Assembly: GCA_021788625.1 (NCBI GenBank)
Contig: JAJYKL010000006.1
Coordinates: 1-64,000, forward strand
Reading direction: 5' to 3'
DNA from: Chloroflexota bacterium
GTDB lineage: Bacteria > Chloroflexota > Anaerolineae > J036 > Brachytrichaceae
DNA length: 64,000 nucleotides
A model generated the notes under the pieces. The model had not been told where the DNA came from. It searched no databases and saw only the letters and a list, made by a program, of their open reading frames with translations. Below are positions 22,988 to 25,472 of this stretch, piece after piece. A program made the position numbers and the translations under genes. Every line of letters begins with the position of its first letter. Within the stretch, counting starts at the first letter, position 1.

Positions 22988-25240
22988 TTATGTACCGGCA
23001 GTGATGAAGCGCAGCATGTCTTGCCGCTCCACCATACCCAGCAGGCGGTGCGCGCGGTCCACCACCACCAGCCGTTTTACCCGTTGGTCGACCATGTGCT
23101 GGATCAAATCCATGGGGCGCGCATCTTCGTAAACCATGTACACCTCCGGCGACATCAGATTGGCAGCTGTGACTTCGTCGCGCAACGACACCTCCACACT
23201 CGTGTCGCCCGCCAGCCAGCTCCGGACGGCTGCCCTGGCCTCATCATCCACGAGGCTGCTGATGCGGTCCATCAGGTCTGCGTCGATGATGATGCCAACC
23301 ACACAGCGCTCGTTGTCCACCACCACCGCCCGCCGCGCGGGATCGTGCACCAGGCGTTCGAGCACCACCGCGAACGGGTCATCAGGCTGAACGGTTGCGA
23401 CGTCCGTGCGCATCCAGCCTCGCACGCGCGAGGTGTCGGCATGCGGGTCAAACGCCGTGAGCAGAGGCGTCTCAATGCGCAGGTGCGCTTCGTTCGCCAC
23501 ACAGCGGAGGACGTCCGAACGACTGATCACCCCCACCAGATCACGGTCTTTGTTCAGTACCGGTAACCGCTTCAACTGCCGTTCTGTCATCAGGCGCGCG
23601 GCCTCGTCCAGTGACGCCGTATCGTGCACGCATAGTGGGTCTGGCGTCATCACATCGCCTGCTGTTTTGCCTGGTGCCAGGATAAGGTACCGAGCCAGGG
23701 CGAAGGGATCAACCTCGCCGGACTGCAGCACCAACCCGCCCCGGCGGAACAGATCGCCGTAGGAGATGATGCCTGCAACAAGCGAGCCCTGCTCATTTGG
23801 CTCGCTTAGCACGACAACGGATTTCAATTGCCGCTGGTTCAGAAGCGCCAATACCCCATTCAATGGCATACTCGGCGATACCGTGGCAGGCTCGCGCGTC
23901 ATGATATCTCGCACGGCAAAGCGCCTGGGCACTTCGAACATGAACTTGGGTGTGTCCACGCGTTGGGCCGAGTAAATGCTGCGGTGTCCCGAGAAGATGT
24001 AGCTGACAACCGTCCCAACCAGCATATACAGGAAGCCTCCACCGCCGAACAGCTCCGCGCTCATGATGGCCGATGCGAGCGGCGTGTTGGAGGCGCCGGC
24101 GAACACAGCAACGAAACCGACTGTTGCCAGAAGGACCGGCGGCACACCCAGGGGCGGCGCCAGCACGTACCCGAGCGTGGCGCCCATGATGAAGAGCGGG
24201 GTGATCTCGCCACCCTTGAACCCCGCGCCGACCGTCAATCCGGTGAAGACGAGTTTGGCCAGCCAGGCGAATGCGGCGACTGCAGCACCACCCCACACCG
24301 CAGTGAGCAGCGGCTGGCTCAGGCCAAGGTAGGTCTGCGTGCCCAGTACCCCTGCCAGGATGATGATGGCGCCTCCGCCCAGCATGGGCCGCAGCCAGCC
24401 TCGACCGTGAGTGACGCGGCCTAGAACCCTGCCCGTGGCATGGGTGAACTCGATGAACAGCAAACTGCACAGGCCGAACGCAATCCCCGCCAGTGCCACC
24501 TTCATCACCAGCCATGCATCAAAAGGAATGGATGCGAGTTGTGGGTATTGGCTGCCATAAGCACCCAGCGCCTTCACGATGCCATACCCCACCGTCGACG
24601 ACACCAGACAGGGCACGAGCCCTTCGTAGCGGATGCGCCCGACGCTCTGCACCTCCATGCCAAAAACCGTGCCGGCCAGCGGTGTGCCAACCACCGACCC
24701 AAACCCACCACTTAGACCGGCCATGAGTAGCACACGCCGCTCTTCTTTGGTCAGGTGCAGTGTTCGCGCCAGCCAGTCTGCCAGCGCCCCGCCCATCTGT
24801 ACAGCGGTACCGACGCTGGCAATGGAGCCGCCAAAGATCAGTGTGACGACCGGGGCCAGGAAACTCAACGGTACCATGCGTAGCGGCACATCTGCGCGAT
24901 TCAGATGCACCTCTTCGATCAGCAGGTTGTTGCCGCGCTCGGTGGCGCCGCCTGCATGGGAGTAGATCAGATGGATGCCGATTCCAGCGCAGGGCAGTAT
25001 CACCAGCAACCAGGGAGCGCCATCATGCACGCGCGACGCCCAACGTAACGTCACCAGGAAGAGAGCCGAAGCCAGGCCGGCCAGTACCCCACTGATAGCG
25101 CCCAACAGGACCCAACGCACAAAGGTAGCCGCGATGGCCGCATACTGACGTGCAGGATCGTGCCGCTTGCCCCGACCCAGACCTGCCGCAAACTGTGCCA
25201 GTGGTTCATACATTGCCCGCATCACGTTTCTTGTCCTCAT
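22988..25240 (-). CDS. CLC-F-like (fluoride) transporter/channel with four C-terminal CBS domains
   Basis: CLC core motifs (RGNNLLIEEVH, GTPLAGTVFGMEVQSVGRIRYE, GGEITPLFIMGATLGYVLAPPLG, GASNTPLASAIMSAELFG, GHRSIYSAQR). Four CBS units begin at about RDIMTREPATVSP, DVMTPDPLCVHD, WMRTDVATVQP and NLMSPEVYMVYED. Confidence 0.92.
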   Translation of the reverse strand: MRTRNVMRAMYEPLAQFAAGLGRGKRHDPARQYAAIAATFVRWVLLGAISGVLAGLASALFLVTLRWASRVHDGAPWLLVILPCAGIGIHLIYSHAGGATERGNNLLIEEVHLNRADVPLRMVPLSFLAPVVTLIFGGSIASVGTAVQMGGALADWLARTLHLTKEERRVLLMAGLSGGFGSVVGTPLAGTVFGMEVQSVGRIRYEGLVPCLVSSTVGYGIVKALGAYGSQYPQLASIPFDAWLVMKVALAGIAFGLCSLLFIEFTHATGRVLGRVTHGRGWLRPMLGGGAIIILAGVLGTQTYLGLSQPLLTAVWGGAAVAAFAWLAKLVFTGLTVGAGFKGGEITPLFIMGATLGYVLAPPLGVPPVLLATVGFVAVFAGASNTPLASAIMSAELFGGGGFLYMLVGTVVSYIFSGHRSIYSAQRVDTPKFMFEVPRRFAVRDIMTREPATVSPSMPLNGVLALLNQRQLKSVVVLSEPNEQGSLVAGIISYGDLFRRGGLVLQSGEVDPFALARYLILAPGKTAGDVMTPDPLCVHDTASLDEAARLMTERQLKRLPVLNKDRDLVGVISRSDVLRCVANEAHLRIETPLLTAFDPHADTSRVRGWMRTDVATVQPDDPFAVVLERLVHDPARRAVVVDNERCVVGIIIDADLMDRISSLVDDEARAAVRSWLAGDTSVEVSLRDEVTAANLMSPEVYMVYEDARPMDLIQHMVDQRVKRLVVVDRAHRLLGMVERQDMLRFITAGT

Positions 25241-25256: not shown

Positions 25257-25293
25257 AAAAAAAGCTCCTACCACTCCTGAACCGGTAGAAGCT
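25257..25293 (-). terminator. intrinsic terminator overlapping the fluoride riboswitch 3' part
   Basis: Minus-strand RNA AGCUUCUACC-gguucaggagu-GGUAGGAGCU-UUUUUUU. Confidence 0.88.
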
Positions 25294-25352: not shown

Positions 25353-25472
25353 CGAACGTAGTGTATGCCAGGTGTCCCTCCTGTCAAGCTCTGGCAAAAG
25401 CAAACACTCGACACACGAGCAGGCTTGCTACAATGCTCACCGCGTGCGATAGAGGGTGACAGAGATTCGGCA

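Follow-up and report, generated by a model that had tools for sequence, protein, structure and literature searches.

A fluoride riboswitch-associated CLC-F lineage with valine at the gate and four CBS domains in Chloroflexota, and its possible role in fluoride export

The CLC-F proteins characterised in the CLC-F literature are proton-coupled antiporters. Three signatures, namely GNNLI/GMGLI, GREGT/V and GEVTP, set this family (PMC11139923). In other CLCs, loss of the gating glutamate (Glu_ex) has been found to cause uncoupling, and a phenylalanine (Phe_ex) serves as the aromatic partner of Glu_ex and aids its movement (PMC7274781). The E148A mutant of CLC-ec1 transports Cl- approximately threefold more slowly, and the E148A/F190A double mutant shows a wild-type-like rate in an uncoupled form (PMC7274781). 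A natural valine at the gate site occurs in CLC-K, where it removes the gate and produces a true channel (PMC6019066).

Here, a gene of the CLC-F type was examined in a 64,000-nucleotide stretch of contig JAJYKL010000006.1 from a Chloroflexota bacterium (hereafter the window, meaning the whole stretch analysed). Its protein carries valine at the gate, and the same trait was followed through the GTDB family of the host, which was surveyed as 29 genomes; no other family of its order is represented in the genome set examined. Val-type proteins containing [I/V]ASVGTAVQMGG were found in seven genomes from three genera of this family (hereafter the Val clade), one copy of which, in G015, ends at the contig end inside the CBS region.

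Anatomy of the gene and its riboswitch

By using Pfam, Voltage_CLC was recognised at residues 94-417 of the protein, followed by four CBS stretches, and the top solved relative in a phmmer search was the Enterococcus CLC-F antiporter (6d0j/6d0k/6d0n, E~5e-47). The first family signature (GNNLI/GMGLI) is present as GNNLLIEE at residue 103, and the third (GEVTP) as GEITP, a conservative V to I change with E318 of the Enterococcus protein retained. Two trees of 46 and 47 rows, built with the gate columns omitted, separated the CLC-Fs from the canonical (chloride) CLC outgroup (96/97 and 99/97) and placed the window protein on the CLC-F branch. Thus, the CLC-F identity and the four CBS units, forming two Bateman pairs, that had been proposed in a first-pass annotation from the letters of the sequence were both borne out. 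Translation may begin at ATG 25222 instead of 25240, since GAGGA precedes the former. An AlphaFold2 model built from four sequences had a pLDDT of 47 in the membrane domain, too poor to judge pore width. When the neighbours of the Val-type gene were compared across the clade, none was conserved and no operon was found. The features of the locus are listed in Table 1.

Table 1. Coordinates of the features of the Val-type CLC-F locus within the window
Feature	Position	Strand	Details
CLC-F-derived membrane protein with four CBS domains	22988..25240	(-)	750 aa, ORF intact
CLC membrane domain, residues 36-432	23945..25135	(-)	Pfam Voltage_CLC and phmmer to 6d0j
First CLC-F signature GNNLLIEEVH (selectivity)	24905..24934	(-)	Asn104 = Met79 of Enterococcus CLC-F; signature in PMC11139923
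Gate region GSIASVGTAVQMG replacing GSAGREGTAVQMG	24791..24829	(-)	Val143 codon GTC, 24812-24814
Val184 at presumed Phe_ex site (F190 of CLC-ec1)	24689..24691	(-)	Ile in 6 other clade members; invariant Phe in 34 Glu-type CLC-Fs; role of Phe_ex in PMC7274781
GGEITPLF, fluoride-binding signature kept	24191..24214	(-)	Glu345 = E318; alignment
Tyr423, inner-gate tyrosine kept	23972..23974	(-)	Y396 of Enterococcus CLC-F; alignment
CBS domain 1, residues 440-500	23741..23923	(-)	Pfam
CBS domain 2, residues 524-584	23489..23671	(-)	Pfam
CBS domain 3, residues 601-660	23261..23440	(-)	Pfam
CBS domain 4, residues 685-746	23003..23188	(-)	Pfam
Fluoride riboswitch aptamer RF01734	25279..25361	(-)	31.1 bits, E=1.4e-6
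Intrinsic terminator AGCTTCTACC...GGTAGGAGCT then T7	25257..25293	(-)	Hairpin -18.5 kcal/mol
Putative promoter TTGACA-N16-TACACT just upstream of aptamer	25360..25387	(-)	Read directly

The window aptamer scored below the Rfam gathering score (31.1 bits versus 34), with no match at gathering in the window, and the aptamers at the equivalent site in two other genomes reached 38.6 bits (G012) and 35.6 bits (G021). Both aptamer and terminator precede the gene at each of the six clade loci whose upstream DNA is readable (in L009 the aptamer was recognised by motif only); the seventh locus, L012, has Ns upstream and was left out of this count. At each of the six, the upstream arm of the terminator is the 3' strand of the aptamer, forming an overlapping expression platform, and TTGACA likewise occurs upstream of homologous loci. 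The fluoride riboswitch control suggested at first reading is therefore supported by the scores of the relatives and by the terminator overlap. One further riboswitch match (27.2 bits) occurs elsewhere in the host genome, at C121:49274-49321; it falls inside a nuoD-like gene, in antisense orientation, and was judged to be a chance hit.

Loss of the gating glutamate and changes around it

The segment GGSAGREGVAVQLG of the Enterococcus CLC-F aligns without gaps with GGSIASVGTAVQMG of the window protein, and the mutant chain 6d0k (GRQG) pins E118 of the former to Val143. The earlier observation that valine replaces the gate glutamate was thereby upheld, and no other Glu is placed at this position. 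Whether relatives share the valine had been raised at the same time; it is present in all seven clade genomes, where the GREGT/V signature with its gating Glu is absent and IASVGT or VASVGT is found instead (7/7). The glutamate lost in this lineage thus belongs to one of the three signatures of the family. Since the seven genomes use different codons for the constant valine (GTC, GTG, GTT), an assembly or sequencing error at this codon could be ruled out.

All of the 34 other aligned CLC-Fs, from Chloroflexota, Pseudomonadota, Bacillota, Bacteroidota and Nitrospirota, have Glu at the gate, as do all further loci of the class with a readable gate, in a survey that was wide, not exhaustive, and composed mostly of Chloroflexota and plasmid-borne genes. 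Within the family itself, the CLC-F of five members is shorter, reads GREGT and lacks the CBS tail; that of a sixth (L018 in G009) carries Ile at the gate, has neither CBS tail nor riboswitch, and forms a fast-evolving long branch. In both trees L018 joins the Val clade on a single branch (98/93 and 100/100), implying that the gate Glu was lost once on the tree, in a single event; the exact placement of L018 is unsure, owing to its long branch. Within-genus differences by codon position were about 0.19/0.12/0.46, which indicates purifying selection, and the gate motif is nearly identical in a clade whose overall identity is 64-73%. The Ile-type gene (L018/L124, gate GAPAASITGTIQLGG) is the single CLC-F-like gene of its genome, in which CrcB is also missing.

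When the clade was set against the 34 Glu-type proteins, several near-invariant positions proved to have changed, namely T105P, H109L, G116A, R117S, E118V, F158I/V and V319I (Enterococcus numbering). F158 aligns, through the motif F-x-x-P-[LI]-A, with the residue taken to be F190 of CLC-ec1 (Phe_ex). The Asn at the M79 site (Asn104), E318 (Glu345) and Y396 (Tyr423), which are the predicted fluoride-selectivity positions, are retained unchanged. With both Glu and Phe_ex gone, the lineage displays a natural pair of changes that resembles the laboratory uncoupled conduit derived from CLC-ec1. Loss of proton coupling, as predicted in the first-pass annotation, is well supported at the sequence level, because Glu has disappeared along with the Arg, His and Phe_ex that assist it. 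With a natural and conserved Glu-less lineage it may be possible to test directly whether a CLC-F can turn into a channel selective for fluoride, and which residues would permit this, in parallel to CLC-K.

Origin and relatives of the CBS tail

The ribose-contact Asp of the G-h-h-x-x-x-D motif is kept in all four CBS units across the clade. Nucleotide gating via the tail is plausible. In the class, the tail is related to three kinds of protein: DUF190-CBS4 (19, of which 16 adjoin CrcB), USP-CBS4 (five, three of them with a CPA2-type antiporter as neighbour) and sulfate-permease-like-CBS4 (three). The clade tails group with the DUF190-CBS4 proteins of G532 and G562 (97/93 and 95/93), the former of which lies beside CrcB. 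A CBS4 tail was also found on Glu-type CLC-Fs in two genomes, G688 (L159, 808 aa, which also carries the fluoride riboswitch) and G690 (L166/L169, split over two contigs). Constraining all CLC-F tails to one group was rejected (AU p=0.0003, with long branches in play), which suggests that the CBS4 module was captured by CLC-Fs at least twice.

The first-pass annotation had singled out the combination of a Val gate with four CBS units. The tail is indeed present, and its specificity to gate loss did not survive the comparison with L159, L166/L169 and the DUF190-CBS4 proteins. The idea that the tail substitutes for the lost gate was rejected as a general rule, as Glu-type CLC-Fs hold an independently gained CBS4 tail; the tail is better read as a putative regulator of fluoride exporters. 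According to a 2024 review, no protein-level control of passive fluoride export or of fluoride channels has been identified (PMC11139923). One candidate for such control of fluoride export at the protein level is the Fluc-linked CBS4 module, which CLC-Fs have acquired at least twice.

Several other arrangements of these modules were observed. The DUF190 (PII-like)-CBS4 proteins of Chloroflexota of the same class (L125, L133, L137-L141 and L147-L156) are candidate protein-level regulators of fluoride channels. On Sinorhizobium and Agrobacterium plasmids (L113, L119), CLC-F is fused directly to DUF190, in L119 followed by crcB, and DUF190 genes adjoin CLC-F on plasmids of Sphingomonas, Sphingobium and Pseudomonas. 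CBS4 fusions also involve universal stress proteins with CPA2-type antiporters next to them (L019, L020, L132) and sulfate-permease-like transporters (L142, L143), and the module may regulate ion transport more generally in this class.

Fluoride export in the family, possible mechanisms and known systems

Among the 29 family genomes, CLC-F was found in 13 and CrcB/Fluc in 15, and both were found together in none; the simple-draw chance of such zero overlap is 2e-7, a figure to be taken as a guide only because the genomes are related. Within the genus of the host, four genomes have the Val protein without CrcB and two have CrcB without CLC-F. CrcB was searched for and not found in the host genome (G000, metagenome-assembled, 92% complete), which contains one further CLC of the ordinary type. 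As CLC-F and CrcB/Fluc never occur together in the family, the Val protein would be the only recognised fluoride exporter of its host, and it occupies the place where almost every other family member keeps its fluoride exporter. A missed exporter in the incomplete host genome is conceivable; the exclusion pattern nonetheless holds over the 29 genomes. Neither CrcB nor CLC-F was found in one member of the family (G017, 93% complete), which might reflect an unrecognised exporter or an assembly gap.

Based on these data, the protein, descended from a CLC-F antiporter, is read, with slightly better than even confidence, as the exporter by which its host removes fluoride, most likely working as a proton-uncoupled anion conduit, induced by the riboswitch and regulated by the CBS domains. 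Fluoride would enter as HF and stabilise the riboswitch aptamer, preventing the terminator and allowing the gene to be transcribed. The change of Glu118 to Val143, together with loss of the helpers, would have removed the proton-carrying side chain and left the fluoride positions in place, so that F- would exit down its electrochemical gradient, with the membrane potential (negative inside) as the driving force, just as Fluc operates. Regulation of the conduit would fall to the four-CBS tail, from a module that accompanies Fluc in the class, probably through adenine nucleotides, whose binding might either favour or hinder conduction. The further proposal of an antiporter turned fluoride channel, in which the proton carrier and its aromatic partner were lost, F- selectivity was kept and CBS ligands would open or close the pore, can be put forward only tentatively. 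If it is true, this channel and the DUF190-CBS4 proteins beside Fluc would show passive fluoride export being controlled in nature at the level of the protein.

The anion carried is less certain than the uncoupling. In the 2018 work of Last et al., E118Q/A substitutions in the Enterococcus CLC-F reportedly abolish F- and H+ transport and give a fast uncoupled Cl- flux, which implies that a neutral gate alone would be insufficient for an F- channel and might let Cl- through. The passive fluoride channel predicted in the first-pass annotation therefore stands as far as uncoupling is concerned, and does not follow from the valine alone; F- conduction would rest instead on the co-evolved substitutions and the genome evidence. 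The same reported behaviour lends some weight to a fluoride-induced leak of chloride or anions in general, serving charge, pH or osmotic balance and not fluoride export. Such a leak seems unlikely, as it would leave the host without a known fluoride exporter, would be costly without need, and fits poorly with the conserved F- selectivity positions. F- conduction is favoured over a Cl- leak since the host has no other recognised exporter, and a passive channel, as Fluc demonstrates, suffices for fluoride resistance.

Somewhat less probable still is a protein that remains a coupled F-/H+ antiporter, with another acid (e.g., Glu345 or the EE of GNNLLIEE) taking over from the lost Glu. Glu345 and other CLC-F positions are retained, and the Val protein stands where antiporters and Fluc stand in other genomes; yet Glu345 and the EE also occur in Glu-type relatives, no novel residue at the gate stands in for Glu118, the surrounding His109, Arg117 and Phe_ex were lost along with it, and Glu_ex loss uncouples other CLCs (PMC7274781). 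The least probable of the readings is a non-transporting sensor of fluoride or nucleotides, or a decaying gene. The loss of an otherwise universal residue would be compatible with it, as would L018, a very fast-evolving relative without tail and riboswitch, but third-position codon changes dominate, the near-identity of the gate motif stands out against overall identity, the riboswitch is retained, and the mutual exclusion with Fluc holds.

The likely uncoupled fluoride conduit proposed here can be set beside several known systems. The CLC-F of Enterococcus casseliflavus (6d0j) is alike in fold and family by sequence, in GNN(L), GE(I/V)TP and the inner-gate Tyr, and in riboswitch control, whereas the window protein has IASVGT for GREGT, has lost His, Arg and Phe_ex, and has gained four CBS domains. 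The Glu-type CLC-Fs with CBS4 (L159; L166/L169) share the four CBS domains but keep GREGT and acquired the tail independently. Fluc/CrcB is an unrelated small dual-topology protein, and yet it resembles the window protein in its passive fluoride exit, as proposed here, in its riboswitch class and in having the CBS4 module nearby in this class. Vertebrate CLC-K, which has two CBS domains per subunit, likewise has a naturally occurring Val where the gating glutamate would be, and would work in the same manner if the window protein is uncoupled. CLC-K belongs to the chloride branch and lacks the fluoride signatures, so that its Val represents an independent loss, i.e., a shared state rather than shared ancestry.
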